Assembly: GCA_903951445.1 (NCBI GenBank)
Contig: CAJBBZ010000285.1
Span: 1 to 64,000, forward strand
DNA from: an uncultured beta proteobacterium
Lineage (GTDB): Bacteria > Pseudomonadota > Gammaproteobacteria > Burkholderiales > Burkholderiaceae_C
DNA: 64,000 nucleotides
Direction: 5' to 3'
Position 1 is the stretch's first letter. Every line of letters starts with the position of its first letter. Positions 4,395 to 63,268 of the stretch are shown piece after piece. Under the pieces are notes generated by a model that was not told the DNA's origin, made no database searches, and saw nothing but the letters and a program-made list of their open reading frames with translations. The translations under genes and the position numbers were made by a program.

Positions 4395-4493
4395 AAAAAA
4401 AACCCCAGCACACGGCCGGGGTGTTAAGCCTATTTGCTGTCACACATCAAGGCCCCGCTCAGGGAGGAAAAGCGGGAGGAACCGAAGTTCCCA
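4395..4493 (-). ncRNA. candidate small RNA (or hemJ leader/attenuator) with CU-rich loop and intrinsic terminator
   Basis: Minus strand: TATACT box at 4505-4500, UUCG-capped hairpin GGAAC-UUCG-GUUCC, hairpin CCCGCU-UUUCCUCCCUG-AGCGGG, then CCCCGG...CUGGGG stem followed by 8 T (4402-4395). Confidence 0.55.
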
Positions 4494-5812: not shown

Positions 5813-6562
5813 ATGAACGCCCCAATCATGCTAATTACCGGTGGCTCGCGCGGCATTGGCGCGGCGACCGCGCTGGCGGCAGCGCAGGCCGGCTATGCGG
5901 TGGCGGTCAATTACCACTCCAACTCGCTGGCTGCCGACGAGGTGGTGCGCAGCATCCGCGAAAGCGGCGGCCAGGCCATAGCCTTGCAAGCTGATGTCAG
6001 CCGTGAAGACGATGTGATGGCGATGTTTGGACGCATAGACGCCAAGTGGGGGCCACTGGCTGCGTTGGTGAACAACGCGGGCGTGGTCGATGTCAGTTCC
6101 CGCGTCGATGGCATGAGCCTGGCGCGGCTTTCGCGCATGCTCAACACCCATGTGCTGGGCAGCTTTGTCTGCGCCCGCGAGGCGGTTTTGCGCATGAGTA
6201 CGCGCCATGGCGGCAGCGGCGGCGGCATCGTCAATTTGTCTAGCGCCGCCTCCAAGCTGGGCAGCCCGGGCCAGTACGTGGACTACGCGGCCTGCAAAGG
6301 CGCAATTGACACATTTACCATCGGCCTGGCCAAAGAGGTGGCCGCGGAAGGAATCCGCGTCAACGCGGTGCGCCCCGGCATCATCGAAACCGACATCCAT
6401 GCCAGCGGCGGCGAGCCCGACCGGGCGCAGCGCCTGGCCCCCCAAGTGCCTATGCAACGGCCAGGCAGCGCGCAGGAAGTGGCCAACGCTATTCTTTGGC
6501 TGCTGAGTTCGGAGGCCAGTTACTGCACCGGCGCGCTCCTCGACGTGGGCGGCGGGCGCTAA
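5813..6562 (+). CDS. SDR family oxidoreductase
   Basis: MLITGGSRGIGAATA, NNAGVVD, YVDYAACKGAID, GGGR C-terminus. Confidence 0.93.
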   Translation: MNAPIMLITGGSRGIGAATALAAAQAGYAVAVNYHSNSLAADEVVRSIRESGGQAIALQADVSREDDVMAMFGRIDAKWGPLAALVNNAGVVDVSSRVDGMSLARLSRMLNTHVLGSFVCAREAVLRMSTRHGGSGGGIVNLSSAASKLGSPGQYVDYAACKGAIDTFTIGLAKEVAAEGIRVNAVRPGIIETDIHASGGEPDRAQRLAPQVPMQRPGSAQEVANAILWLLSSEASYCTGALLDVGGGR

Positions 6563-6699
6563 GCGCACACTTGTATGCTTGGGGTCTTATGGCCTTTTGG
6601 CCCGAACCCCATCCCCAGATCAACAGTTCCCGATCTCGATTTCCCGACCTCAGCGCCCGACCCTGTTTACCGACCCGATTACGCAGAAAGCTTTTTTGT

Positions 6700-7485
6700 A
6701 TGGATGCCAGTGCCCTGACCAGCCCCGATTTATCCGTTGAACTACGCGGCCCGGTGCTGTGGCTGACCATTACCCGCGAAGCGCGCCGCAATGCCATGAG
6801 CCATGGCGTGTTGGCCGGTATGGCAGCCGCCATCAGCGCGGCGCAAACTGAGCGCAGCGTGCGCGCCATCGTCGTCACCGGTGCCGGTGACAAAGCTTTT
6901 TGCGCTGGGGCCGATCTGCAAAACGCACAAGCCTTCACCACCGATTACTCCGAGCCGCTAGGCCATTTGGCGCAGCTCTTGCGCGTGGCCAAAGCCAGCT
7001 ATGTACCACTGGTAGCGCGCGTCAACGGCGCGTGTATGGCCGGGGGCATGGGCCTCTTGTCCATGTGCGATATGGCGGTGGCCGCAGAGCATGCGGTCTT
7101 TGGTTTGCCCGAGGTGAAAGTGGGCGTATTCCCCGCCCAGGTGCTGAGCGTCTTACAGCACCTGATTCCGCGCCGCACCTTGGTAGAAATGTGTATTACC
7201 GGCGAGCCCATTAGCAGCCTGCAAGCCTTGGAGTTTGGCCTGGTCAATTACATCGACCGCGATGTCGATGCCAAGCTGCAATGGTTGCTGGAACGCCTGC
7301 TGGACAAGTCGCCCGCAGCAGTACGGCGCGGGCTGTACATGATGAAGAAAATGGAGACCATGGCCTTTGAAGAGTCCATGGCTTTTACCGAAAGCCAGAT
7401 TGCACTCTTTACGCTAACCGAGGACGCACGCGAAGGCCAACTGGCGTTTCAGGAAAAGCGCAAACCCCAATGGAGCGGCAAGTAA
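6700..7485 (+). CDS. enoyl-CoA hydratase/isomerase family protein
   Basis: AIVVTGAGDKAFCAGADLQ, NGACMAGGMGLLSMCDMAVAAEHAVFGLPEVKVGVFP. Confidence 0.92.
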   Translation: MDASALTSPDLSVELRGPVLWLTITREARRNAMSHGVLAGMAAAISAAQTERSVRAIVVTGAGDKAFCAGADLQNAQAFTTDYSEPLGHLAQLLRVAKASYVPLVARVNGACMAGGMGLLSMCDMAVAAEHAVFGLPEVKVGVFPAQVLSVLQHLIPRRTLVEMCITGEPISSLQALEFGLVNYIDRDVDAKLQWLLERLLDKSPAAVRRGLYMMKKMETMAFEESMAFTESQIALFTLTEDAREGQLAFQEKRKPQWSGK

Positions 7486-7525: not shown

Positions 7526-9235
7526 ATGAACGACAGCACTTTTGACTACATCATCATCGGCGCAGGTACCGCCGGTTGCCTGCTGGCCAATCGCCTGAGC
7601 GCCGACGCCTCCAAGCGCGTGCTGCTGATTGAAGCCGGGCGGCGCGACGATTACCACTGGATTCATATCCCGGTAGGCTATTTGTATTGCATCGGCAACC
7701 CGCGCACCGATTGGTTGTTCAAAACCGAGGCCGAGGTCGGGCTCAATGGTCGCAGCCTGATTTACCCGCGCGGCAAAACCCTAGGCGGATCGAGCAGCAT
7801 CAACGGCATGATTTATATGCGCGGCCAGGGCCGCGATTACGCGCGCTGGGCCGATGTGACGGGCGAGTCGCAATGGAGCTGGGACAACAGCCTTCCCTAC
7901 TTCCAATTGCACGAAGACCACTACAAAGGTGCTAACGCTTTGCACGGCGCGCGCGGCACCGCCCCCGCACTGATGCAAGACGCGGATACACCCTACCGCG
8001 CGCTGCTGCGCCACCACAATGCAGGCGGTGAGTGGCGCGTGGATAAACAACGTTTGCGCTGGGAAGTGCTGGAAGCTTTTTCGCAGGCAGCGGTGCAAGC
8101 GGGCATACCGGCGACCGAAGACTTCAACCGGGGCGACAACGAAGGCGTGGGCTTTTTTGAAGTCAACCAAAAAAATGGTTGGCGCTGGAACACGGCTAAG
8201 GCCTTTTTGCGCCCCACTTGCTATGCACGACCCAACTTTGAACTCTGGACTGGCGCGCAGGCGAGCGAACTGGTGCTGGAAAACCACCCCGGCACCGCCA
8301 AGCCTTTGCGCTGCACTGGCGTCAAGGTGTGGAATGGCCGGGAGATGGTGACCGCCCATGCAACACGCGAAGTGATTTTGAGCGCCGGTTCGGTCGCCTC
8401 GCCGCAGTTATTGCAACTCTCGGGCATTGGCCCGTCTGCGCTGCTCCAATCCAAGAACATCGCGCTGCGGCTAGACCTGCCGGGCGTAGGCGCCAATTTG
8501 CAAGACCATTTGCAAATCCGCACGGTGTTCAAAGTGAAAAATACGCCTACGCTCAACACCATTGCCTCCAGCCTGTGGGGCAAGGCGCGTATCGGCTTGG
8601 AATACCTGCTCAAACGCACGGGGCCTATGAGCATGGCGCCCAGCCAGTTGGGCGCATTCACCCGCAGCGACCCGCAGCAGCCTTACCCAAATATCCAGTA
8701 CCACGTGCAGCCGCTCAGCCTGGACGCCTTCGGCTCGCCGCTGCACACCTTCAATGCCATGACCGCCAGCGTCTGCAACCTGAACCCGACTAGCCGGGGC
8801 ACGATCAACATCCGCACACCCGACTTTCGCGATGCGCCAGCGATTGCGCCCAATTACCTGAGCACCGATACCGACCGCAAAGTAGCCGCCGACTCGCTGC
8901 GGGTCACGCGGCGCATCATGGCGCAAAGCGCGATGCAAGCATTTGCGCCCGAGGAATACAAGCCCGGCGTGCAATACCAAAGCGACGAAGAACTCGCCAA
9001 GCTAGCTGGCGACATTGCCAGTACGATTTTTCACCCCGTAGGCACCACCAAAATGGGCCGCGCTGATGACCCCATGGCGGTGGTAGACCCGCGCCTGAAA
9101 GTGCGCGGCGTGGCCGGGCTGCGCGTGGTCGATGCCGGTGTGATGCCATTTATTACCAGCGGCAACACCAATTCGCCCACCCTGATGATTGCTGAGAAAG
9201 CAGCCCAGTGGATTGCCGAAGACGCCCATGACTAA
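7526..9235 (+). CDS. GMC family FAD oxidoreductase (choline dehydrogenase-like)
   Basis: DYIIIGAGTAGCLLANRLS; GKTLGGSSSINGMIYMRGQ; LSAGSVASPQLLQLSGIGP; HPVGTTKMGRADDPMAVVDPRLKVRGVAGLRVVDAGVMP. Confidence 0.95.
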   Translation: MNDSTFDYIIIGAGTAGCLLANRLSADASKRVLLIEAGRRDDYHWIHIPVGYLYCIGNPRTDWLFKTEAEVGLNGRSLIYPRGKTLGGSSSINGMIYMRGQGRDYARWADVTGESQWSWDNSLPYFQLHEDHYKGANALHGARGTAPALMQDADTPYRALLRHHNAGGEWRVDKQRLRWEVLEAFSQAAVQAGIPATEDFNRGDNEGVGFFEVNQKNGWRWNTAKAFLRPTCYARPNFELWTGAQASELVLENHPGTAKPLRCTGVKVWNGREMVTAHATREVILSAGSVASPQLLQLSGIGPSALLQSKNIALRLDLPGVGANLQDHLQIRTVFKVKNTPTLNTIASSLWGKARIGLEYLLKRTGPMSMAPSQLGAFTRSDPQQPYPNIQYHVQPLSLDAFGSPLHTFNAMTASVCNLNPTSRGTINIRTPDFRDAPAIAPNYLSTDTDRKVAADSLRVTRRIMAQSAMQAFAPEEYKPGVQYQSDEELAKLAGDIASTIFHPVGTTKMGRADDPMAVVDPRLKVRGVAGLRVVDAGVMPFITSGNTNSPTLMIAEKAAQWIAEDAHD

Positions 9236-46503: not shown

Positions 46504-46871
46504 TGATTTGCCTTTGCTGTGAAGTTTTGTATTACGCGCAAGTAGGTTCTCTAACTGCAATTTAGGAAGTGCAGAGAAAAGTACGAAAGGCATTCTGTGC
46601 CTCTCCAATCTAGCAACCCCGCTGACATTGCGCCAATGGTTGGCGCTTTAGTTCGGTGGCTTTGCGTCGCCGGCTTTCACCGGGTTTGCCCTTCAATATT
46701 TTTCAATCGGTCAAGGGCTGTACCGATTTGAAAAGGATAGCACAGAGGCAAGGCGTTGATTCGTTTTTGTCGGTAGGCGACAACGCCTTTTCGTGAACTT
46801 ACCGTCACAGCTTTAATGGCCCGCGTCACGGCCGCTCAGCAGCAATTTCCCGCGCCTAATCCGCCGTCCTT

Positions 46872-50990: not shown

Positions 50991-51349
50991 GTGATTTGCC
51001 GCAGTTCAAGCTAAATGACTATGTGCGTCACATGACACAGGCCATTGAACAGGTTGCGGAGTATTTGGAAGACGTCACTGAAGCGCAATTTCTTTGCACT
51101 CGCTTGCTGCAAGACGGCATAGTGCGTAACTTGGAAATCATCGGTGAGGCGGCGCACCTGGTTATCAAAAAATTCCCGGAATTTGCCGCCACGCACACAG
51201 AAGTTCCATGGGAAGCGGTTTATTACATGCGAAACCGGGTGATCCATGGCTACGCTAGCATTGACTATGAACTGGTCTGGCAAGTGGCAAATCGAGAGTT
51301 GCCACAAATGCATCTGCACCTAAAGAAGTTGCTTGCTGACTTGCAATAA
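50987..51349 (+). CDS. hepT: HEPN-domain toxin (HepT, DUF86)
   Basis: FLCTRLLQDGIVRNLEIIGEAAHLVIKKFPEF, PWEAVYYMRNRVIHGYASIDYELVWQVA; RX4HXY motif RNRVIHGY. Confidence 0.92.
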   Translation: MSDLPQFKLNDYVRHMTQAIEQVAEYLEDVTEAQFLCTRLLQDGIVRNLEIIGEAAHLVIKKFPEFAATHTEVPWEAVYYMRNRVIHGYASIDYELVWQVANRELPQMHLHLKKLLADLQ

Positions 51350-51358
51350 GCAGCTAAT

Positions 51359-51772
51359 TCACCCGGCAAACGGGTCCAGCACTTGCAGGCCCATGTTGGC
51401 AAAGTCGCTGGTGTTGCGGGTGACTAGCGTCATGCGGTGTTCCAAGGCGCTGGCCGCGATCATGGCGTCGCGTTCGGGGCGAGGGTCGGGAATGTGCAAC
51501 GCGGCGCAGAGTGCGGCGGTGTTGCCGGTAAAAGGCAGGACGCGCCCTTCAAATGCGCGCACCGTGGCGCCCAACCAAGCGCGCAATGCGCTGCCCTGCG
51601 GGGGTGTGCGGCGCTCCAGCAACATCACACCTTTTTCCAACTCCAGAACGCTAATTGCCGACAGATACAACTGCCCGGCTGGCACGCCCGCCGCCCAAAC
51701 CCGCACTGCGGCGGACTGGTGGGGCTTGCCCTGGCGCAGTTCAGAAATCACGTTAGTGTCGAGTAAATACAT
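51359..51772 (-). CDS. vapC: VapC-like PIN domain toxin
   Basis: MYLLDTNVISELRQGKPHQSAAVRVWA, PERDAMIAASALEHRMTLVTRNTSDFANMGLQVLDPF. Confidence 0.92.
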   Translation of the reverse strand: MYLLDTNVISELRQGKPHQSAAVRVWAAGVPAGQLYLSAISVLELEKGVMLLERRTPPQGSALRAWLGATVRAFEGRVLPFTGNTAALCAALHIPDPRPERDAMIAASALEHRMTLVTRNTSDFANMGLQVLDPFAG

Positions 51773-51778
51773 GGCGCG

Positions 51779-52039
51779 CTAGCCAAGGTCCGCCACGGGC
51801 AGCGCAATGTGCGCTTTGGGCGGGTCAAATTCAATGCCCACGCCGCCGGGAATGGCGTCCATGACATCGAGCAGGCTGTCTTGTTGCGCTCCGCTGAGCG
51901 CGTAATAGTCTTGGATAGACAACAAAGCGTAGGCCGGGCGCCCGCGATCGGTAATCAGCACCGGGCCATGGGCCGCCGCGCGCTTGGCGGCGCTGACGTC
52001 GCGGGTGAAGTCGCGGCTGGAATAGGTTTGCACAGTCAT
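51779..52039 (-). CDS. Phd/YefM family antitoxin
   Basis: MTVQTYSSRDFTRDVSAAKRAAAHGPVLITDRGRPAYALLSIQDY. Confidence 0.9.
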   Translation of the reverse strand: MTVQTYSSRDFTRDVSAAKRAAAHGPVLITDRGRPAYALLSIQDYYALSGAQQDSLLDVMDAIPGGVGIEFDPPKAHIALPVADLG

Positions 52040-52210
52040 GGGCGACCTCCGAACAGAATGTTTGTATGTTATGACATTTTTGGATCGCCGCCAACAGGAC
52101 TCCTTCACACCATCGGGGCCATGGGGGCAGCTGAAAGCCGCGCCAGGTACCGACGGCCCCGGCGATGCAATAAGTGACAGTCCGGGCCCCAGGCGGGCAG
52201 GCAAGCCGCG

Positions 52211-53059
52211 CTAATCGCCCCCCAGCTCCTGCGCAATATCGTCCACCAGTTGTTGGCGTTGCTGGGCGCGCTTGCCCAGGCGCATGGCGACGTGGTGGCT
52301 GAGCAGTTGCAGCATGCTGGCAGCGGCCATGGCCGAGAAGGCGTGGTCGGTGCTGCTGCTGTAGCAGGGCAGCACCACGCTGGCAAAGCGCTGCGCCCAG
52401 GCGCTGTGGCGTACATCGACCACGGCCACGGTTTGCACGCGGGTGGTCCCGGCGTGTGTGGCCAGGCGATCCATGGCGCTGTCGCGCGGCTGCGTCATGA
52501 TCAGCAGCAGCGCATCACGCGGGCCGGCCATGGCCAGGTCTTCGGCCCAAACGCCGCTTTGCATGCCTAGCGCATACACCTCGGGCCGGATGCGCGCCAG
52601 TTGCGGGCGCACAAAACGCGCCAAGCCCTCGTCCATACCCAGCCCCAGCAGCCAGACTTTGGGCGCTTTGGCGAGCAAGCTGGCGGCGGCGAGCAAGGTG
52701 TCGCTGCGCAGCGACTCGAAGGTGCGCGCCAGGCTTTCGGACTCAGTGTGCAAATGCGCGCTAATGCTATGGCTGCGCACCGGCGCCGCTGCGCCATCCG
52801 GGCGCGGCGCCTGAAACGGCGGGGCCAGGTTGCGCTCTTCGCGCGCTTGCAGGCGCACTTCATTGAAATCGGCATAGCCCAGGCTGCGAAACAGACGCGC
52901 TGCCGTGGCCTTGGACACATCGGCCATGGCCGCTAGCTCGGTGGCCGAGTAAGTGAGCATGTCGTCCGCGCGCTCCAGCAACAGCTTGGCCAGCTTGCGC
53001 TCGCTGGGCGAGAGCTGCTCAAAGTGCTCTTGGATAGCCAGCGTCAGGCGGGTGGTCAT
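52211..53059 (-). CDS. MurR/RpiR family transcriptional regulator
   Basis: LSPSERKLAKLLLERADDMLTYSATELAAMADVSKATAARLFRSLGYADFNEVRLQARE; SIS-like C-terminal domain. Confidence 0.92.
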   Translation of the reverse strand: MTTRLTLAIQEHFEQLSPSERKLAKLLLERADDMLTYSATELAAMADVSKATAARLFRSLGYADFNEVRLQAREERNLAPPFQAPRPDGAAAPVRSHSISAHLHTESESLARTFESLRSDTLLAAASLLAKAPKVWLLGLGMDEGLARFVRPQLARIRPEVYALGMQSGVWAEDLAMAGPRDALLLIMTQPRDSAMDRLATHAGTTRVQTVAVVDVRHSAWAQRFASVVLPCYSSSTDHAFSAMAAASMLQLLSHHVAMRLGKRAQQRQQLVDDIAQELGGD

Positions 53060-53076
53060 GGGCCAAAAGGCGGTGG

Positions 53077-53117
53077 TTGAAACAATCATTCCATGATACT
53101 ATGATTAACTGAAACAA
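53077..53117. promoter_or_regulatory. candidate RpiR operator region in divergent promoter
   Basis: TTGAAACAATCATTCCATGATACTATGATTAACTGAAACAA: TGAAACAA direct repeats bracketing AATCAT-11-ATGATT. Confidence 0.45.
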
Positions 53118-53206
53118 CGGTTCCAGCCTCGCGGCCGCTTGATGCGCTGCGATCAGGCCGGGCCGAAAGCCCCGAATTTGCCTCAACCCGCGCACAAGGA
53201 AACCGA

Positions 53207-53944
53207 TTGGCCGCTTCCGCTTTTGCCCGTGAACAACTGTGGGACGGCCTGCGCGCCGTGGCGCTGCCAGACTCGCGTTTTCATTTGCGGTTTTCAGAGT
53301 TCATCCCCGACTTCAGCGGCTCGGACGCGGCCATCGACCGTTTGTGGGCGTTGCCCGGCTTTGATGCGGCGCGCCATGTGTTTGTGACGCCGGACAACAG
53401 CTTGACCGGGCTGCGCCAGCGCCTGCTGGCGCGCGGCGTGAGCCTGGTGGTGTCCAGCTACAACATGGCCAGCGGCTTTTACCTGCTGCGCCCAGGCGCA
53501 GTGCCCAAGGGCCACGAGCTCTATGGCGCCTGGCCCGACGGGCTGGCGCATTTTGGCGAGCCGCTCTCGCTCAACGCACTGGCCGATCTAGGCGCTATTG
53601 ATTTTGTGGCGACGGGCGCCTCGGCGGTAGCTACTTCGGGTGTGCGCTTTGGGCGCGGCCATGGTTTTTTTGATCTGGAGTGGCGCATCTTTAGCGACAT
53701 GGGCTTGGTGGACAACCTGACCCCGCTGGTCACCGTGGTGCACGATGTGCAAGTACTGGACAAAAAGCTCTACCCCAGCCCCGATGACGTGCTGGTGGAC
53801 TGGATATGCACCCCCACGCGCAGCCTGCAAGTGGCGCGCGAAACCCAGCGCCCGCGCGGCCTGAACTGGAAAGACATCACCCCCGAACAAGTGCACGCCA
53901 TACCGGCTTTGGCCGAGTTACGGCGCATCATCGGCCTGGCTTAA
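53207..53944 (+). CDS. 5-formyltetrahydrofolate cyclo-ligase-like protein (COG0212-type), paralog A
   Basis: Contains VRFGRGHGFFDLEW (5-FCL-like GxGxGYxD motif), VTPDNSL, CTPTRSL; paralogous to ORF 57380-58141; TTG start uncertain. Confidence 0.72.
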   Translation: MAASAFAREQLWDGLRAVALPDSRFHLRFSEFIPDFSGSDAAIDRLWALPGFDAARHVFVTPDNSLTGLRQRLLARGVSLVVSSYNMASGFYLLRPGAVPKGHELYGAWPDGLAHFGEPLSLNALADLGAIDFVATGASAVATSGVRFGRGHGFFDLEWRIFSDMGLVDNLTPLVTVVHDVQVLDKKLYPSPDDVLVDWICTPTRSLQVARETQRPRGLNWKDITPEQVHAIPALAELRRIIGLA

Positions 53945-54023
53945 AAGCCCATTTTTATTTGCAAGCTATTACGATTTCCCCGCCCCTTGTTTTTTTAACT
54001 TTTCACCTTCAAAGGATGACACC

Positions 54024-54989
54024 ATGAAAGCATCACGCCGCCAGTTTCTTGCCACCTCCGCCGCTTTGGCATCTATCGCGCCCATGGGCGCCTGGAGCCA
54101 AAGCGCTGCCAAACTCACCCTGCAAGCCGCATGGGTGAACGACGCCGAGTTCATGGGCTACTTTATTGCTATGGACAAAGGTTTTTACAAAGCCGAAGGC
54201 CTGGACCTGACGTATTTGTCCGGCGGCCCGGACGTGATCCCCGAGGCCTCGCTTTTGTCCAAAAAAGCCGATGTGTGCCTCACTACCGTAGAGACCGCTA
54301 TAAAGGCCATCACCGACCAAAAAGCACCGCTGGTCATCATCGGCGCGCAATACCAAAAGAACCCGGTGGGCATCGTCAGCCTGGCCTCCAAGCCCCTCAA
54401 AACACCGCAAGACCTGATCGGTAAAACCATTGCCGTGCCGCCGGTCAACCGCCTGACGGTCGAGGCCATGCTCAAGCTCAATGGCATCGACAAAGCCAAG
54501 GTCAAAATCGTACCTTATGCCTACGACCCGACGCCGCTGATCAAAGGCGAAATCGACGGTTCGCTGGACTTCACCACCAACGTGCCTTTCACCATCAAGA
54601 GCATGGGCAAAGACGCCACCAGCTTCCTGCTGGCGGACTTCAAACTGCCGCTGTTTAACGACGTGGTGGTAGTCACGCAAGAGACCCTCAAGACCCGCCG
54701 CAAAGACATCGTGGCCTTTATGCGCGCCAGCCGCAAAGGCTGGGACGAGAACTTCAAAGACACCAAAGCCTATCCGCCCAAGTTCAAAGATACCTGGTTC
54801 AAAGGCACGGGCCGCAGCGTGGAAAACGAGTTGTTCTTCAACGAAGCGCAAAAGGCTTTGATGGTGAATGCGGGTGGCATATTTGCCATGAGCGATGCGT
54901 CGATCGCCAACTGCATTGCCGCGCTCAACGCGGTCGATGTGAAGGCCGACAAATCGCACTTTGACACCAGCTTGCTCAAAGAAATCTGA
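54024..54989 (+). CDS. ABC transporter substrate-binding protein (NMT1/THI5/SsuA-like)
   Basis: [26 protein letters not shown] Tat-like leader; [55 protein letters not shown]. Confidence 0.92.
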
Positions 54990-55756
54990 TGCCTAACAGC
55001 GAACTGCGCATAGCCCAGGTCGGGCGCGTGTTCGCAGTCTCCGGCGCTGCGCCTTTGGTGGCGCTGGAGGATGTTTCTTTGCACTGCCCCAGTGGCTCGT
55101 TTACCGCGCTGATCGGGCCTTCGGGCTGCGGCAAGTCCACCTTGCTGCGCCTGGTGGCTGGCTTGGAGCAGCCCGATGGCGGCACGGTGCGCATCGGCGA
55201 GGAAACACCGCTGGCTTTGCAACAACGCGGCGCGCTGGGTATTGCGTTTCAAGACGCGGCGCTCTTGCCCTGGCGCTCGGTGGTGGACAACGTGCGCTTG
55301 CCGCTGGATGTCACCGGCGCACCGGTGGACATGGCGCGCATCCGCAGCCTGGTGGAGCTGGTGGGCCTGAAAGGTTTTGAGGGCGCACTGCCTTCGCAAC
55401 TATCCGGCGGTATGCGCCAACGGGTGGCGATAGCACGGGCGCTGGTCACCCAGCCCGAAGTGCTTTTGCTGGACGAGCCTTTTGGCGCGCTAGACCAAAT
55501 TTTGCGCCGCAGCATGAACCTGGAGCTGCAACGCATTTGGCTGGAGCGGCCCACCACGACGCTGCTGGTGACGCATGGCATCGACGAAGCCTTGTTTTTG
55601 GCCGACCGTGTGGCGGTGATGCAAAGCCAGCCCGGGCGGATTGCGCAGATCGTGGAAGTGCCGTTTGACAGGCCGCGCAAAGTGGACTTATTTAACAGCC
55701 CCGAGTTTCGCGCGCTAGAGCAGCAAGTCTCCGGTATTTTGTACGGCAGCGCTTAG
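54989..55756 (+). CDS. ABC transporter ATP-binding protein
   Basis: [59 protein letters not shown]. Confidence 0.95.
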
Positions 55757-55766
55757 CGCACAGTGT

Positions 55767-57341
55767 ATGGATACCCCAAACCGCCACCGCGCCGCTTTGC
55801 CCGGCTTGCTGCTGATGCTGCTGCTATGGGAAGTGGCGGGCCAGGCCCAATGGGTGGGCCAGGGCGCACTGCCTGCGCCTAGCGGCATCTTGCGCCAATG
55901 GTGGCAAGACCGGGGCGACTATCCACCGCATATATGGGGCACGCTCAAGACCGCGTTTGCGGGTTTTGTGATCGGCAATACGGTGGCGGTGCTGATGGGC
56001 ATGTGGTTTGCCTGGTGGCGCCCCGCCGGGCGCTTGATGGCCGGCGTCAACGTCACCCTTTTTGCCATGCCAGCGATTGCGCTGGTGCCGATTTTGGTGA
56101 TCGCTTTGCAAGGCGATACGCCGCGCGTGGTGCTGGCGGCGCTGTCGGTGTATTACCCGACCATGGTGGCCACGGTGCTGGGCCTGACGCAAGTGGATGC
56201 GCGCTTGGTGGATCTGGTGCGCGTGTATGGCGGCAGTGACGCGCAAGTGCTGCGCCGCATCCGTTTGCGCAGCGGCTTGCCGACGCTGCTAGCCGGTTTG
56301 CGGGTGGCCGCACCGGCTGCGGTGCTGGGTTCGCTGCTGGCCGAGTTTGGCAGTGGTGGCAACGCCGGGCTGGGCACGTATTTAATTGGCTCGCTGGGCC
56401 GCGCCAACCCGGAGCGTTTATGGGGCATTGGCCTCACAGCCACCGCGATCAGCGGCATCGCCTATGGCTGCGCGGGCCTGATCGCCGCGCGCTTTGCGGG
56501 CAACACGCAAAGCGCCAGCACACCGCTGGGTTTTCAGGCGGGCTTGGATACCGAAAGCGCCGCCACGCGCTGGGCCATGCGCCTGGGCACGCTGGCTATG
56601 CCTTTTGTGCTTTGGTACGGCGTCATTGCGCTATTCACGTTGCTGGGCGTGTCCGACATCGTGCTGCGCGGACCGGTGGGCGTACTGGAGCATTTGTTTA
56701 GTGTGGACAAGGCCGGCGAAAACCGCGAGGCGCTGCTAGATGCGCTGTCGCAAACCTTGCCCTACACCGTGCTGGGCATGTTGGCCGGGCTGGCGGTGGC
56801 GCTACTGCTGGCGGTGGGCACCACGGTCTATAAAGCGCTGGGCCATAGCCTGATGCCGGTGGCGCTGGTCAGCCAGTCCATGCCGCTGGTGGCACTGACG
56901 CCTTTGGTGGTGCTGGTGTTTGGGCGTGGCACGGTCAGCATCTTGGTGATCACCATATCGGTGACTTTTTTTCCGGCCTTTGTGACGATTGCCCAAGGCC
57001 TGGCGCTGGTGCCTAGCAGCGCGACGGATTTTGTGCGCGTCTATGGCGCCGGGCGCTGGCGGCAACTGCGCCTAATTGCGCTGCCCTGGGCCTTGCCCTA
57101 TTTGTGCGCGGCTGCGCGCTTGGCGGCACCGCGCGCGTTTTTGGGCGTGATGATTGCCGAATGGCTGGCCACTGGCACTGGCATTGGCAACTTGCTCAAT
57201 GTGTCGCGCGGCGTACTCGATTTCGGAATGATCTGGAGCGTTGCGGTGGTGGCCATCCTCATCGCCGTGGCGCTTAACAGCCTGGTCGTGGTGCTGGAGC
57301 GCTATGTGCTGCAACGCTACGCCATGGCGCCTGCGGCCTGA
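55767..57341 (+). CDS. ABC transporter permease, two permease domains in one chain
   Basis: Two BPD_transp-like halves: PAIALVPILVIALQGDTPRVVLAALSVYYPTMVATVLG and SQSMPLVALTPLVVLVFGRGTVSILVITISVTFFPAFVTIAQG. Confidence 0.9.
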   Translation: MDTPNRHRAALPGLLLMLLLWEVAGQAQWVGQGALPAPSGILRQWWQDRGDYPPHIWGTLKTAFAGFVIGNTVAVLMGMWFAWWRPAGRLMAGVNVTLFAMPAIALVPILVIALQGDTPRVVLAALSVYYPTMVATVLGLTQVDARLVDLVRVYGGSDAQVLRRIRLRSGLPTLLAGLRVAAPAAVLGSLLAEFGSGGNAGLGTYLIGSLGRANPERLWGIGLTATAISGIAYGCAGLIAARFAGNTQSASTPLGFQAGLDTESAATRWAMRLGTLAMPFVLWYGVIALFTLLGVSDIVLRGPVGVLEHLFSVDKAGENREALLDALSQTLPYTVLGMLAGLAVALLLAVGTTVYKALGHSLMPVALVSQSMPLVALTPLVVLVFGRGTVSILVITISVTFFPAFVTIAQGLALVPSSATDFVRVYGAGRWRQLRLIALPWALPYLCAAARLAAPRAFLGVMIAEWLATGTGIGNLLNVSRGVLDFGMIWSVAVVAILIAVALNSLVVVLERYVLQRYAMAPAA

Positions 57342-57379
57342 GTGCGCAGCCCCTTTTTTTGATTACCTGAAAGAAGCCT

Positions 57380-58141
57380 ATGGAACACACCGACCATAAA
57401 CACACGGTACGCGAGCGCGTGTTTGCAGCGCTGCGCGAAGTAGCCTTTGCCGACAGCCGTTTTCATTTTGATTTCGGCGAATTCATCACCGACTTTGTAG
57501 GCAGCAGCGCCGCCACCGATCGCTTGATGGCGCACCGCTTTTACCAACAGTCCGAGTGCATTTTCATCACGCCAGACAACTGCATCGAAGAGCTGCGCTA
57601 CCGCACTTTGTGTGAAGGCAAGCGCATCTTGATGACCACCTATTCCATCCGCCGGGGCTTTTGGCTGCTAGACCCGACCACCATCCCCCAAGACCGCTTG
57701 CTGTATGCGGCGACGCTAGACGGCATGGAGCGCCACGGACGGCACATGACGCTGGCGCAAATTCGCGCCGAGCTGCCGCGTCTTGACTACATGATTACCG
57801 GCACCGGCGCGATCAACGAACACGGCGTGCGCTTTGGCAAAGGCCATGGCTTTTTTGATGCCGAATGGGGCATGCTTTACCGCATTGGCGTGATCAATGC
57901 GCAAACGCCCACGGCAGCGCTGGTGCACGACTGCCAGGTGCTGCAAGAGACTTTGTACCCCGAGATTTTTGACACTGTGGCCGACGCGATTTTTACGCCC
58001 ACGCGCACCATCGAGGTGACCAACCCGCACAAGCCACGTTGCGGCATCGTCTGGGATATGCTGGACCCGCAGATGCTGGCCACCATACCGCCACTGCAAG
58101 AGCTGCAAGCCATGGAAGCGGCTTTGCCACCATTGGCCTGA
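57380..58141 (+). CDS. 5-formyltetrahydrofolate cyclo-ligase-like protein (COG0212-type), paralog B
   Basis: DSRFHFDFGEFITDFVGSSAATDRL, ITPDNCIEELRYRTL, VRFGKGHGFFDAEWGM, FTPTRTIEV. Confidence 0.78.
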   Translation: MEHTDHKHTVRERVFAALREVAFADSRFHFDFGEFITDFVGSSAATDRLMAHRFYQQSECIFITPDNCIEELRYRTLCEGKRILMTTYSIRRGFWLLDPTTIPQDRLLYAATLDGMERHGRHMTLAQIRAELPRLDYMITGTGAINEHGVRFGKGHGFFDAEWGMLYRIGVINAQTPTAALVHDCQVLQETLYPEIFDTVADAIFTPTRTIEVTNPHKPRCGIVWDMLDPQMLATIPPLQELQAMEAALPPLA

Positions 58142-58164
58142 ACGCTTTACGGGAGCCCCTCACA

Positions 58165-59214
58165 ATGACCTACGCCACGATCGCCCGCGACCACCTGCCC
58201 GCCTTGCTGGCGCGCATGCCCAAAGCCGAGTTGCATATCCATATCGAAGGCTCTTTAGAGCCAGAGTTGATATTCGCCCTGGCCGAAAAAAATAGCATCG
58301 CGCTCAGCTACCCCAACGTGGAGGCTTTGCGCGCAGCCTACGCGTTTACCGACTTGCAAAGCTTTTTAGATTTGTACTACGCCGGTGCTTCGGTGCTGAT
58401 AGAGGAAGACGATTTTTATCGTATGGCCATGGCCTACTTTGCGCGCGCGCATGCCGACCACATCGTGCACGCTGAATTATTTTTCGATCCGCAAACCCAT
58501 ACCGAACGCGGCGTGCCTATGGGCGCAGTCATTGAAGGCCTGGCCCGCGCCTGCGCGGATGCCAAGGTTCAGTATGAAATCAGCGCCAGCCTGATCTTGT
58601 GTTTTTTGCGGCACTTATCCGAGGAGTCCGCCTTCGATACTTTAGAAGCCGCCTTGCCTTACCGAAAACACTTTATCGGCATAGGCCTGGACTCCGGCGA
58701 ACGCGGCAACCCACCGGAGAAATTTGCCCGCGTGTTTGCAAAATGCCGTGCGCTGGGCTTGCGTATCGTGGCCCATGCGGGGGAAGAAGGGCCACCGGCT
58801 TATATCGAAAGCGCGCTTGATGTGTTGCAGGTAGAGCGCATAGACCACGGCGTGCGCTGTAGCGACGACCCGGCGCTGGTGCGCCGCCTGGCCGCCAGCC
58901 ACATGCCACTAACCGTGTGCCCGCTGTCTAACGTGAAACTCTGCGTGTTCAACACCATGCAAGAGCACAACCTGGCCGCGCTGCTGCACGCGGGTTTGTG
59001 CATCACCATCAACTCGGATGACCCGGCCTATTTTGGTGGCTACCTGCTTACCAATTTTGAAGCCGTGTTTGCTGCTCTGCCGCAACTGAGCGGGCAGGAT
59101 GCTTGGCAACTGGCGCGTAACAGTATTGACGCTAGCTTTGCGGCTGAAGCAGACAAAGTGCTATGGCGGACGACACTCGACCAAGTGTTTGACCAGGCGC
59201 TGGCCACTTCCTAG
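58165..59214 (+). CDS. adenosine/adenine deaminase family protein
   Basis: MPKAELHIHIEGSLEPELIFALA, HAELFFDPQTHTERG, LDSGERGNPPEKFARVF, HAGEEGP, ERIDHGVRC, NSDDPAYFGGYL. Confidence 0.92.
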   Translation: MTYATIARDHLPALLARMPKAELHIHIEGSLEPELIFALAEKNSIALSYPNVEALRAAYAFTDLQSFLDLYYAGASVLIEEDDFYRMAMAYFARAHADHIVHAELFFDPQTHTERGVPMGAVIEGLARACADAKVQYEISASLILCFLRHLSEESAFDTLEAALPYRKHFIGIGLDSGERGNPPEKFARVFAKCRALGLRIVAHAGEEGPPAYIESALDVLQVERIDHGVRCSDDPALVRRLAASHMPLTVCPLSNVKLCVFNTMQEHNLAALLHAGLCITINSDDPAYFGGYLLTNFEAVFAALPQLSGQDAWQLARNSIDASFAAEADKVLWRTTLDQVFDQALATS

Positions 59215-59236
59215 CCAAGCGCCCGATTTGCAAGAC

Positions 59237-61615
59237 CTACAGGTCGTATTTCAGCTCTGCAACCAAGGTGCGCCCCGGATAGGGGTGGAAGTTCCAGTAC
59301 TCTTGATTGGTCAGGTTGTCAACGCCAAAGGCGGCTACCAGTTTGGGCTGGATGGCATAGCGCACCCGTAGGTCCAGCACGGTAAATCGGCTAGCTGCGG
59401 TGTAAGCAAAGCCATTGATATCCGTGTTGTTCAAGCTACTGAACTGGTCGGAGCTGTAACGCAAGCCCAAGGAGGTACTCAGTTGGGGGCTCCAGTGGTA
59501 ATTGGCTAGCGCACTGGCACGCCACTGCGGTACACGGGGCTGCAATTTGTTAATGGTGTCGCCAGGTGTGGACACGTAGGAGCTGTTCGCTTTGATGCGC
59601 GAGTCGGCATAGGTCACACTGCCCGACAGGTCCAGGCCTTGGGTGATAAGGTTCTCTCCCTGAAACGCAATCTCTAGGCCATGCGTGCTGATGGCGTCAA
59701 TGTTTTGCACCATGTTGACAGGGGTGTTGTCGGTCTTGAGGCCCGCCACTTGCGAGTAAAGCGAGTCTGTCACATCCTCATTGAAATAGGTCAGCCGCAA
59801 GAGCCCATTACCCAGTTCCTTTTCCAATGTGAGCTCTGTTGTCCAGGATTTTTCCGGTCGCAGATTGGGGTCGTTCAACCACGTCTGCCCGCTGGTACAG
59901 GCGCCGGTGACAATTTTCTTGGCGGGGTTGATGTCCGCGCATTTGCTCGCGGTAGCGCCGTAGAGTTCAGACACGGTTGGCATACGAACCGCTCGCCCAA
60001 GCGAGCCTTTGAGCACCGTATCTTCTGACCATTGGTAAGCCAATGCAGCTTTGGGCGATGCGAAAAACTCCTTGCGCTCGGCATAACGGTCGGTGGCCGC
60101 AGCAGTCTTGGCATAGCCATCCGATGCACTCCAATTTTCCAGCCGCAAGCCCAGTACAGTTTTCCAGTCTGTCGCAAACGTCCAAGCGTCCTGCGCGTAA
60201 ATACTTTGCAGCTTGCTTTGCCCGCCTACGTCTGAGCTTAAACTGGCCGCGCCGCTGGTAAACCAGCTGTCAGTAGCACTCAGGTTGGACTTCAGGACAC
60301 GCAGTTGGTAGTTATCTTGCTGGACACCAAAATCCACCAGGTGCGCGCCCTGCAGGCCTTGTGGGCGCCAGATGCCTTTGGCCGCCAGCGTGGTCCAGCC
60401 CGTGCCCTTTTGGTCGGTCAATGTGGCGGCATTCCCGTTGACCATGGTGCCGTTGAGATTGGCGGCGCTGTTGATAGAAGACTGGCGGGCCTGGTCAGTG
60501 CCGTAGTCCACCAAACTAGCAGCCAGCTCCCAATCCCACCGGCCCTTGGTATTGCTCTTGACTGACAGGCCGTGCATCCAATGGTCTAAGCGCTCTTTGG
60601 TGGCATTGAACAAGCCGTTGGCGGAGAAGGTCTGCCCGCTGATGACATGATTGCCACCATAAGGATTGGCCGTGTCTGTCAGGTAGCTTTTGGCCGTACC
60701 GTCGGAGGTGTTTCTCCAATTAGCCAGCGTGTAACTTGCGCGTACGGCGGGGGACAAGTCATAGGCCAATTTGAGTTTGGCGTGCTCTTGCACCGTGTGG
60801 TACTGGGTATTGGTGCCTAGGATGTACCAAGGCGTATTGGTTTTATCCAAGCCATACACCGCGCCATTATTGCTGCTCTTGGTCGGATCGACCGTGAAGG
60901 ATCTGGTCGCAAGCACCAGCGGTTGGCCCTGGCTATCGGTGCGGTTGATGTTCACCCACCACGCCCAGTCGCCGCTCTTGCTGCCTAACGAGGCACTGGC
61001 CTGAGTGGCAAAGTCGGTCTCGTGCGTGTTATACAAGTCAAAGTTTTGCTGCGAGACCACGATTTTTGCGTGCCCTTCGAACTGCTTGGGCATTCGGGTG
61101 ACATAGTCCACCACCGCACCCACCGAATTGCCGGGGTAGGCTGCGGAAAAGGGGCCATACATCACGTCTGCGCGCTCGATCTCTTCAGGCGTGACCATGC
61201 CCCAACGCGGCGCATACGTGGCGCCATTGCCTAAATAGTTGGACAACAAAATGCCATCGGCATAGACGGCCGAGCGCGCACTATTGCCGGTACCGGAAGC
61301 CCGACTGGAAAGCACTGCATGGTTGTAGTCGCCGATATAACGCCGCCGCACGACCAGGCTGGGAAAGTACTTGAGCACGTCTTCGCTGTCTGTCGCGTTA
61401 ATAGTTTGCTCCATTTGCGTGCGGGTAATACCTTCGATGGTAGTGGGAATTTGCGTAGGCAAGGAACTGGGGCGGCCGCCGAAAACGGTGACTATGCCCA
61501 AAGATTTCACTGGCGCTTGCTCTTGCGAAGGGTCTGTGGAAATTGGTTGTGCCCCAGCACCCAGGGATGTAGAGAGGCCGATGGCTATAGCCACCGGAAT
61601 TAATCGATGTTGCAT
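59237..61615 (-). CDS. TonB-dependent receptor
   Basis: SEDVLKYFPSLVVRRRYIGDYNHAVLSSRASGTGNSARSAVYADGILLSNYLG plug region; C-terminal LVAAFGVDNLTNQEYWNFHPYPGRTLVAELKYDL. Confidence 0.94.
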   Translation of the reverse strand: MQHRLIPVAIAIGLSTSLGAGAQPISTDPSQEQAPVKSLGIVTVFGGRPSSLPTQIPTTIEGITRTQMEQTINATDSEDVLKYFPSLVVRRRYIGDYNHAVLSSRASGTGNSARSAVYADGILLSNYLGNGATYAPRWGMVTPEEIERADVMYGPFSAAYPGNSVGAVVDYVTRMPKQFEGHAKIVVSQQNFDLYNTHETDFATQASASLGSKSGDWAWWVNINRTDSQGQPLVLATRSFTVDPTKSSNNGAVYGLDKTNTPWYILGTNTQYHTVQEHAKLKLAYDLSPAVRASYTLANWRNTSDGTAKSYLTDTANPYGGNHVISGQTFSANGLFNATKERLDHWMHGLSVKSNTKGRWDWELAASLVDYGTDQARQSSINSAANLNGTMVNGNAATLTDQKGTGWTTLAAKGIWRPQGLQGAHLVDFGVQQDNYQLRVLKSNLSATDSWFTSGAASLSSDVGGQSKLQSIYAQDAWTFATDWKTVLGLRLENWSASDGYAKTAAATDRYAERKEFFASPKAALAYQWSEDTVLKGSLGRAVRMPTVSELYGATASKCADINPAKKIVTGACTSGQTWLNDPNLRPEKSWTTELTLEKELGNGLLRLTYFNEDVTDSLYSQVAGLKTDNTPVNMVQNIDAISTHGLEIAFQGENLITQGLDLSGSVTYADSRIKANSSYVSTPGDTINKLQPRVPQWRASALANYHWSPQLSTSLGLRYSSDQFSSLNNTDINGFAYTAASRFTVLDLRVRYAIQPKLVAAFGVDNLTNQEYWNFHPYPGRTLVAELKYDL

Positions 61616-61723
61616 GAATATTTACTCAATAAGGGATTCGAAATAGATGTCACAGCGCGGGGCAAAAGCGTCCCGAGCAAGCATCCAAGTGATGCGCCTG
61701 CAATGGCAGGCAGCTATGTCAGC

Positions 61724-62143
61724 TCAAGCTAGGGTCGGAGGCCCGCGCGGGAAAGCGGCTTCAAGAACGGCCGCCGAACCTGGTCGCCGTCCGTACGACG
61801 CGGGAAGTGCCAGTTTGGCGAGGGTGTCAAAAAAAACTATTTGGGCAAAAGTATGCGGACCAAATGCGTGGGAAGAGGCGAAGCACCACTGACAATGCCC
61901 TCCAGCGCCCTGGTGGCTATCCGAAGTAGGCGCATGGTCACCCGCCAGCACGGGTTTGGCAAACGCAATCTCACCAGCGCCCAAGGCACCATTGCTACTG
62001 CATATGTCTAAGTTGGCTAAGGTGGCGCGTGTCGACGGTGCGATGAGCCCGGGTAGCAGCGGCGCCACCAGCATGAGGCCAAGTAGCAGCCACACCCATG
62101 CACGGCGGTATACCGTCACTTGGCGCTCTAGGAAGCTGCCCAC
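61724..62143 (-). CDS. DUF2946-like protein
   Basis: N-terminal TM plus HCQWCFAS CxxC-type motif; position beside TonB receptor and PCuAC. Confidence 0.68.
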   Translation of the reverse strand: MGSFLERQVTVYRRAWVWLLLGLMLVAPLLPGLIAPSTRATLANLDICSSNGALGAGEIAFAKPVLAGDHAPTSDSHQGAGGHCQWCFASSHAFGPHTFAQIVFFDTLAKLALPASYGRRPGSAAVLEAAFPRGPPTLA

Positions 62144-62171
62144 GCACGTGTCTACCAGCTAAGGCGCCTGC

Positions 62172-62648
62172 TCAATGCTCGCCGTGATGCTGCACTTTAG
62201 CGCCAGCAGGCGCGACTTGGGACACCGGCACTTTGATGTCCAAACTGCTTTCCAAACCCTTGGGGTCTTTGAAGCGTAAGGTCAAGGGAATCGTTGTGTC
62301 TTTTTGCAGCGGCAACTTCAAGTCCATCAGCATGAGGTGAAAACCGCCGGGCTGCAAAGCCACCGCCTTACCAGCGGGAAGCGGCAAGCCGTCAGGCAGC
62401 GCGCGCATTTGCATTACGTTGTTGTCCATCTTCATTTCATGCACTTCGGCCACGCCAGCCACGCTGGTGCTGACGCCCACCAGCTTGGTATCGGTTTTGG
62501 CCGTCAGCGTCATAAAGGCACCGGTGGCTTTTTGACCTTGTACAGTGGCACGTGCCCAAGCGCTTTGCACGCTGACGTTTTGCGCCCAGGCGCTTGAAAC
62601 CATCAGGCTGGAAAGCAGAAATGTGCGAATAAGTGATTTGTTGTTCAT
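62172..62648 (-). CDS. copper chaperone PCu(A)C family protein
   Basis: VQSAWARATVQGQKATGAFMTLTAKTDTKLVGVSTSVAGVAEVHEMKMDNNVMQMRAL...LQPGGFHLMLMDLKLPL. Confidence 0.95.
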   Translation of the reverse strand: MNNKSLIRTFLLSSLMVSSAWAQNVSVQSAWARATVQGQKATGAFMTLTAKTDTKLVGVSTSVAGVAEVHEMKMDNNVMQMRALPDGLPLPAGKAVALQPGGFHLMLMDLKLPLQKDTTIPLTLRFKDPKGLESSLDIKVPVSQVAPAGAKVQHHGEH

Positions 62649-62716
62649 AGCGGATTCTTTCTTAAAAATAAAAAGCGCGGCGCCGACCATTGCAGGCGAG
62701 TGTTCGGCGCAAACCA

Positions 62717-63268
62717 TCAATGGGCGTGGCCGCCAGCGGCCTGTACGTCCAATACTTCGAGCAACGCTGCGGGCATCTTCAAGCCTTTGGTCGAGGTGCC
62801 ACTAGCAGGCACTTCCACCCAGTCGTTTGAGCCTTTGGCGCAGGATTGCACTACCTTGAACCATAGGGGGCCTGGCTTGGCCGGAGTGGTTCCGCGCAGC
62901 ACAAATTCGTCGTAATAAGCATGCGGCAAGGCATTTTCAGCACTGTTGGCGGTCCAGCTGATTTCCAGCACGCCTTCGGTGTATTTCTTGCCATGGCTTT
63001 CATAGGGCACGGGCAAAGTGCCGATGACGGTGCGCGCAGTCCAACCCGACTTGGGCATGGGTTGCGCTCCGTTGAAACCGGCGGGAATCGTCACGCGGAT
63101 ACCCGTAGTTGACTCGGCATCGCAGCCGTGGCCAACCCGAAACGTGGCGCGGTAGCTGCTATTGGCGGCAGCGGCGCCATCTTGCAACACCACATGGGAT
63201 TGTGCCGGGATACTGGCCAAGGAAAGGGCGCTGATAAGCAGCACTAAAGAGTTTTTGAATAAATGCAT
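62717..63268 (-). CDS. YcnI family protein (DUF1775)
   Basis: SHVVLQDGAAAANSSYRATFRVGHGCDAESTTGIRVTIPAGFNGAQPMPKSGWTART. Confidence 0.93.
   Translation of the reverse strand: MHLFKNSLVLLISALSLASIPAQSHVVLQDGAAAANSSYRATFRVGHGCDAESTTGIRVTIPAGFNGAQPMPKSGWTARTVIGTLPVPYESHGKKYTEGVLEISWTANSAENALPHAYYDEFVLRGTTPAKPGPLWFKVVQSCAKGSNDWVEVPASGTSTKGLKMPAALLEVLDVQAAGGHAH

Follow-up and report, generated by a model that had tools for sequence, protein, structure and literature searches.

This study concerns a group of genes in the DNA of an uncultured beta proteobacterium, placed by GTDB in the Burkholderiaceae_C and represented by contig CAJBBZ010000285.1 of assembly GCA_903951445.1. The window is the whole stretch of DNA that was analyzed, 64,000 nucleotides from position 1 of this contig, and the genes in question lie at 52211–59214. 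A regulator gene of the RpiR family is read from the minus strand, and divergent from it a tightly packed row of genes is read from the plus strand (53207–59214). In a preliminary description of this DNA the row was said to hold five genes; the strand, the coordinates, the overlap at 54989 and the divergent RpiR gene all stand, but the count is six, with each identity in the list of open reading frames backed by Pfam and with gaps of 79, −1, 10, 38 and 20 bp in order.

The core module consists of the RpiR gene and, facing away from it, FCL1, the binding protein, the ATPase, the fused permease and FCL2. FCL1 (53207–53944) encodes a 245-residue COG0212-type protein of the 5-formyltetrahydrofolate (5-FTHF) cyclo-ligase family (PF01812, E = 7.6e-11). 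It is followed by a periplasmic binding protein (SBP) of the NMT1/THI5-like class with a twin-arginine-like start, RRxFL (54024–54989; PF09084, E = 2.3e-41), an ATP-binding cassette (ABC) ATPase of the NitT/TauT type (54989–55756; PF00005, E = 2.7e-33, with the NCBIfam ntrCD subfamily profile under its cut-off), and a fused double permease of 524 residues with two BPD_transp_1 domains (55767–57341; PF00528 in two stretches). FCL2 (57380–58141; 253 residues, PF01812, E = 2.1e-10) is the second COG0212-type protein. The Pfam identities thus bear out the earlier view that two enzymes resembling 5-formyltetrahydrofolate cyclo-ligase (5-FCL) bracket an NMT1/THI5-like importer. In the lineage of the window, purifying selection acts on every gene: compared with locus L024, the ratio of nonsynonymous to synonymous substitution rates (Ka/Ks) ranges from 0.016 for FCL2, the most conserved protein of the set among close relatives, to 0.067 for the permease.

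FCL1 and FCL2, which are 41% identical to each other, share the fold and the Pfam family of 5-FCL (EC 6.3.3.2) but differ from it in other marks. While both pass the PF01812 cut-off of 27 bits (42.7 and 41.2 bits), both fail the NCBIfam equivalog for 5-FCL, TIGR02727, by a wide margin (26.8 and 20.3 bits against 84.9). The canonical glycine motif of the RLGYGGGYFDR type is absent from both in the alignment, and in its place stands R-F-G-[KR]-G-H-G-F-F-D-x-E-W, in the forms RFGKGHGFFDxEW and RFGRGHGFFDLEW. The window's genome already has two canonical 5-FCLs in addition, with the motifs RLGYGGGFYDR and RLGYGGGYFDR. In the tree FCL2 forms one well supported clade with the canonical 5-FCLs far away; the FCL1 proteins stand apart from FCL2 and from other COG0212 proteins, and the forks among them are poorly resolved. 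With FCL2 as the query, a profile search against solved structures gave no match, but a fold search with its AlphaFold model (AF2; mean confidence, pLDDT, of 80, weak at residues 22–38 and 155–158) found 5-FCL/MTHFS structures, followed by the wider ribose-1,5-bisphosphate isomerase/eIF2B fold. Judged by sequence, with the motif GKGxG[YF]xDxE and a tree position apart from canonical 5-FCLs, FCL1 and FCL2 are not 5-FCLs and group with the COG0212-type paralogues.

The COG0212 proteins reportedly occur in all domains of life, as the title of Pribat et al. 2011 states. Passages in PMC5041015 and PMC4120688 that cite Pribat et al. 2011 present them as 5-FCL paralogues of the At1g76730 type, and they are listed as not being 5-FCL and as implicated in thiamin salvage, with no function assigned (PMC3223725, PMC4120688). 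FCL1 and FCL2 are like this type in Pfam family, fold, the motif GKGxG[YF]xDxE instead of GxGGYYDR, and the link to transport genes. They differ from it in making up a pair of groups of their own, in having TPDN where the other COG0212 proteins found have NPDxPQ, and in being under an RpiR regulator, with no thiamin genes adjoining them in the window or at the other module loci.

The arrangement of the module is kept beyond what chance would give. With FCL2 as the query and one genome taken per species, 56 loci were collected, and 47 of them have RpiR, FCL1, SBP, ATPase, fused permease and FCL2 in identical order and orientation, by a manual tally that takes in L073 and L075, both with broken frames. 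Most of the remaining loci stop at contig edges. The complete loci span the alpha-, beta- and gammaproteobacteria, and their hosts include Comamonadaceae, other Burkholderiales, Salinicola, Rhizobium, species of the Brucella group, Devosia, Hoeflea, Rhodobacter and Cereibacter; a search for conserved neighborhoods of the protein at 57380, proposed in the preliminary description for the Burkholderiales, is thus answered far beyond that order. The module is nevertheless rare: of the 201 genomes in the family 3 have a relative of FCL2 (E ≤ 0.001), and of the 369 in the class, 12. A comparison of the flanking genes between loci gave none in common beyond the six; the flanks change by lineage, and the module is therefore a self-contained unit. 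Attempts to read a function from the flanks failed as well, as GNAT, NlpA lipoprotein and FAD monooxygenase neighbors are only lineage-specific. The layout was earlier thought to match no described pathway, and none was found in the literature searched.

The control region also speaks for a self-regulated unit. The RpiR protein has an HTH_6 domain (E = 2.5e-12) and a SIS domain (E = 2.1e-7), and a divergent orthologue is present in 45 loci. Its open reading frame as listed runs over 52211–53089, but the orthologues (about 282 residues, starting MTTRL) favor the ATG at 53059 (MTTRLTL...), which suggests 52211–53059 as the true gene. The RpiR/FCL1 intergenic regions have in common a palindrome, TGAAAC-N4-GTTTCA, with at least 11 of its 12 positions kept in all 43 loci tested; among 860 control stretches taken from these loci, some of which may overlap the operator itself, 13 reach 11 positions. 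There are at most two exact copies per whole genome, and 15 of the 17 sites fetched sit at this operon. In the window, copy 1, TGAAACAATCATTCCA (53078–53093, plus strand; one mismatch to TGAAACNNNNGTTYCA), and copy 2, TGAAACAACGGTTCCA (53110–53125, plus strand), flank the −10 hexamer of a sigma-70-like promoter, TTGAAA-17-TATGAT (53077–53105, plus strand), which is a match to the consensus only and is the only promoter-like site found within 51300–61800. Copy 1 overlaps the −35 hexamer and the −10 lies just before copy 2. Paired operators astride a promoter are the layout of a local repressor, and the RpiR protein, with its divergent gene and shared operator, is probably such a repressor of the operon, responding to an effector. 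A wider regulon was considered and rejected, since the off-operon palindromes (in genomes G130, G503, G583 and G586) fall at unrelated genes or within reading frames.

Genes of the COG0212 type also stand beside importers of quite different kinds. Among seven plasmid records with such a gene, a small sample, an importer adjoins it in five. A LysR-COG0212-BMP-type ABC set is found on plasmids of Roseinatronobacter, where a window-type module with a single FCL adjoins it back to back, and of Roseicitreum and Pseudosulfitobacter; BMP-type importers adjoin COG0212 genes at L183, L184, L185, L114 and L182 in all, and genome G887 has a BMP-type set in addition to its window-type FCL. On a plasmid of the haloarchaeon Halalkaliarchaeum (L180, 6395–8741), a COG0212 gene whose product is 41% identical to FCL2 has an SSF sodium:solute symporter gene upstream, at a distance of 140 bp. 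On a plasmid of Allorhizobium pseudoryzae (L182/L193; L182, 2493–8735), an operon with a BMP-type importer, BiuH, AtzD, an ATPase and a BiuH-like protein ends in a COG0212 gene, and its cyanurate hydrolase and biuret hydrolase genes exceed the NCBIfam cut-offs. Of the importers that lack a COG0212 gene, the nearest is that of L186 (ATPase 63% and SBP 48% identical to those of the window); its neighbors are a nucleoside deaminase, an adenosine-deaminase-family gene, a BiuH-like hydrolase and an FMN oxidoreductase. The importers beside COG0212 genes, together with the deaminases and the hydrolase at L186, point to COG0212 enzymes working on imported N-heterocycles.

Compared with the Rhizobium cyanurate/biuret operon (GntR/BMP importer, formamidase, BiuH, AtzD, ATPase, isochorismatase, cupin), the combination of an importer with N-heterocycle enzymes is alike, and the L182 variant even has a COG0212 gene, but the importer class and the regulator differ from those of the window. 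A link to cyanurate was not retained: the Allorhizobium operon is a single case, and two typical Rhizobium AtzD operons (L195, L196) have a cupin and no COG0212 gene.

We favor, at a probability of about 0.4, the reading that the module is a self-contained and locally regulated system for the uptake and activation of a small N-heterocycle, in which the FCL pair would perform an ATP-dependent first step. At the level of sequence it rests on a conserved gene set, a paired operator astride the promoter, a Tat-like (twin-arginine) signal on an SBP of the ThiY/Thi5 class, and the COG0212-type enzymes. Points in its favor are the 5-FCL fold with another glycine motif, the two canonical 5-FCLs that the genome has besides, and the presence of COG0212 genes beside unrelated importers. 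In this scheme the RpiR protein would repress the operon until its SIS domain binds a metabolite made from the compound taken up. The SBP, presumably exported by the Tat route, and the ABC importer would take up a small N-heterocycle resembling an aminopyrimidine, a purine or a pterin. FCL1 and FCL2, by their homology to the ATP-dependent cyclo-ligase, may then perform the first intracellular step, an ATP-dependent activation of an amide- or formyl-type oxygen, after which a neighboring nucleophile would attack, with ring closure or phosphoryl activation as the outcome. Since the operon keeps no further conserved enzyme, the product would pass into general metabolism. The substrate class named in the preliminary description, a heterocycle like a nucleobase, a pterin or a thiamin fragment, remains a reasonable guess, but its thiamin part is weakened by the missing TPP (thiamin pyrophosphate) riboswitch, ThiC/ThiE and ThiY motifs.

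Several observations weigh against this uptake-and-activation reading. The FCL1/FCL2 pair is not obligatory, as FCL1 occurs singly with RpiR in L120, L122 and L185, FCL2 singly and without RpiR in Thiomonas (L038), and orphan FCL2 genes at L044 and L197 (a plasmid of Rhizobium leguminosarum); given the single-FCL loci, the minimal unit seems to be one COG0212 protein plus the importer. The COG0212 genes of L115, L116 and L119 have no transporter among the neighbors checked. Importers related at about 30–34% sit in a lipid-type cluster of roseobacters, and the importer class therefore does not fix the substrate. The catalytic step, finally, is drawn by analogy from the family.

That lipid-type cluster, on roseobacter and Paracoccus plasmids (L187, L188, L189, L190, L192), consists of a CDP-alcohol phosphatidyltransferase, a sulfatase, an SBP-ATPase-fused permease set related to the importer of the window (about 28–34% in the SBP) and a glycosyltransferase 4; a lysylphosphatidylglycerol-synthase-like protein is present in all but L188, the gene order is rearranged in L192, and the cluster looks lipid-related.

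One alternative, which we consider unlikely, is that of an ordinary NitT/TauT-type importer for a sulfonate, a nitrate-like anion or a similar small solute, with FCL-like proteins that would have an accessory or regulatory role and take no part in ring chemistry. The NCBIfam profiles closest to the ATPase and the permease are indeed those of nitrate, sulfonate and Sao-type subunits, and related importers are found in unrelated clusters. By both sequence and fold, however, the SBP is nearer to ThiY and Thi5 than to SsuA or TauA, its nearest solved relatives being ThiY (3ix1), a thiamin-bound clostridial protein (4nmy) and Thi5. A COG0212 gene next to three unrelated importer types suggests an enzyme linked to the substrate, and FCL2 is the most constrained protein among close relatives.

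These same relatives of the SBP lead to a second alternative, thiamin-pyrimidine salvage, in which a variant of ThiXYZ would import hydroxymethylpyrimidine (HMP) or N-formyl-aminomethylpyrimidine (FAMP), from which the COG0212 pair would make an HMP precursor of thiamin. The module resembles the HMP/FAMP importer ThiXYZ in its NMT1/THI5-like SBP, its NitT/TauT-type ATPase and permease, and ThiY (which binds FAMP) as the nearest solved relative. COG0212 has been tied to thiamin salvage in PMC3223725 and PMC4120688, and, in our own reasoning, FAMP has an N-formyl group near an amine, as does 5-formyltetrahydrofolate. COG0212 genes lie beside thiamin genes at none of the window-type modules and in one case for the BMP-type module: on plasmid pRA01 of Roseicitreum antarcticum (L183, 1–13808), the LysR-COG0212-BMP-type set is divergent from a complete thiamin cluster (thiD, FAD oxidoreductase, thiS, thiG, thiE, thiF, NMT1-type SBP, TenA, ABC ATPase).

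There are also differences from ThiXYZ: the module lacks a TPP riboswitch, thi neighbors and the ThiY motifs, and has a fused double permease and RpiR control. No TPP riboswitch was found at the module, although such riboswitches occur elsewhere in each of the 27 module-bearing genomes that were searched; the single one found in the window's genome precedes a gene for a thiamin-binding ThiB-like protein. In an alignment with three thiamin-linked binding proteins, which come from TPP-riboswitch or thi loci, the SBP is without the motifs W[FY]xNPxHAP, YQP and GVPxYDEL (at their cores WxNPxH, YQP and YDEL). It carries motifs of its own, among them WxNDAEFxGYF, and carries near its start an invariant RR of Tat-type look; it is in the class of ThiY, yet not ThiY proper. 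Some module-bearing genomes also have separate TPP-riboswitch-linked ThiXYZ-like loci, whose SBPs are only about 22–25% identical to that of the window. Searches for ThiC and ThiE found neither in the genome of the window, which is 99.3% complete, nor in those of L028 and L034; in these genomes HMP could therefore not become thiamin. A genome of the same genus without the module has both. Among the hosts tested, ThiE is absent from G000, G567 and G568 and present in the others. The missing ThiC as such is no sign of a link to HMP auxotrophy: of 26 module-bearing genomes 17 are without it, but by the control counts its absence is common among relatives in general, since 131 of the 201 genomes of the family have ThiC and, in an alphaproteobacterial family, 17 of 121 do. 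Ordinary HMP salvage is thus improbable as the general role of the module, and, without a TPP riboswitch at the operon and without ThiC and ThiE, hardly possible in the window's organism.

The sixth plus-strand gene (58162–59214) was rightly placed in the adenosine/adenine deaminase family: it encodes an adenine deaminase by NF006850 (536.3 bits against a cut-off of 419). Its closest solved relatives are 3ou8 and 3rys, and 3ou8, like 3pan, we take to be PA0148. PA0148 has been called an adenine deaminase (PMC6629668). The gene lies 20 bp downstream of FCL2 and is found next to the module in some 15 loci, almost all of them in Burkholderiales; most linked copies are near the base of the deaminase tree, with two among the unlinked copies, and G589 holds a second, unlinked copy. 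It is, however, the only gene of the set that is not conserved with the module. A homologue (at least 60% identity) is present in nearly every Burkholderiales relative tested, module or not; the window's genome has a single copy, the one beside the module; and the alpha- and gammaproteobacterial modules are without it. No residues separating linked from unlinked copies were found. In G130 (L121) the module has decayed to fragments of FCL2 and of the RpiR end (8276–8853), while the deaminase gene is intact (6195–7217). On these comparisons the protein is taken as a housekeeping adenine deaminase next door, outside the conserved module and possibly co-transcribed with it, and its proposed part as a pathway enzyme is given up. 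A purine-type catabolic operon, in which adenine or an N6-substituted adenine would be imported, processed by the FCL pair and deaminated by the last gene, is accordingly doubtful in spite of the purine-type deaminases near the L186 importer.

Other features of the window lie outside these questions. A PIN-domain toxin and Phd/YefM-like antitoxin pair (51359–52204, minus strand) adjoins the RpiR gene, and among the loci collected such a pair was found beside the module otherwise at L023 and L026 only. On the other side, converging on the deaminase gene, are genes (59237–62720, minus strand) for a TonB-dependent receptor, then a small protein and what is, judged by eye, probably a copper protein of the PCuAC type; they resemble a copper uptake cluster. 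There are also matches to a cyclic di-GMP-I riboswitch (46609–46700, minus strand) and to the Burkholderia anti-hemB small RNA (4395–4479, minus strand).

The uptake and activation of a small N-heterocycle may have a wider counterpart. In a bolder proposal, which we regard as a long shot, COG0212 proteins in general would be import-coupled, ATP-dependent ring-forming or activating enzymes, served by lineage-specific importers (NMT1-type ABC, BMP-type ABC, sodium symporter), that reclaim N-formyl or ring-opened N-heterocycles. Thiamin in its ring-opened, N-formyl thiol form would be a possible example: closing that ring again would take neither ThiC nor ThiE, two enzymes that the window's genome is without. 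If true, this would give the COG0212 family a biochemical function. The study also cautions against automatic labels, since the names “thiamine importer”, “5-formyltetrahydrofolate cyclo-ligase” and “pathway deaminase” all fell short in one or more of the tests made. The module itself is a small, portable and self-regulated system that occurs in culturable bacteria (Salinicola, Rhizobium, Lampropedia); its ligand can be read from the SBP and then offered to the FCL enzymes, which makes the question of the COG0212 reaction directly testable.

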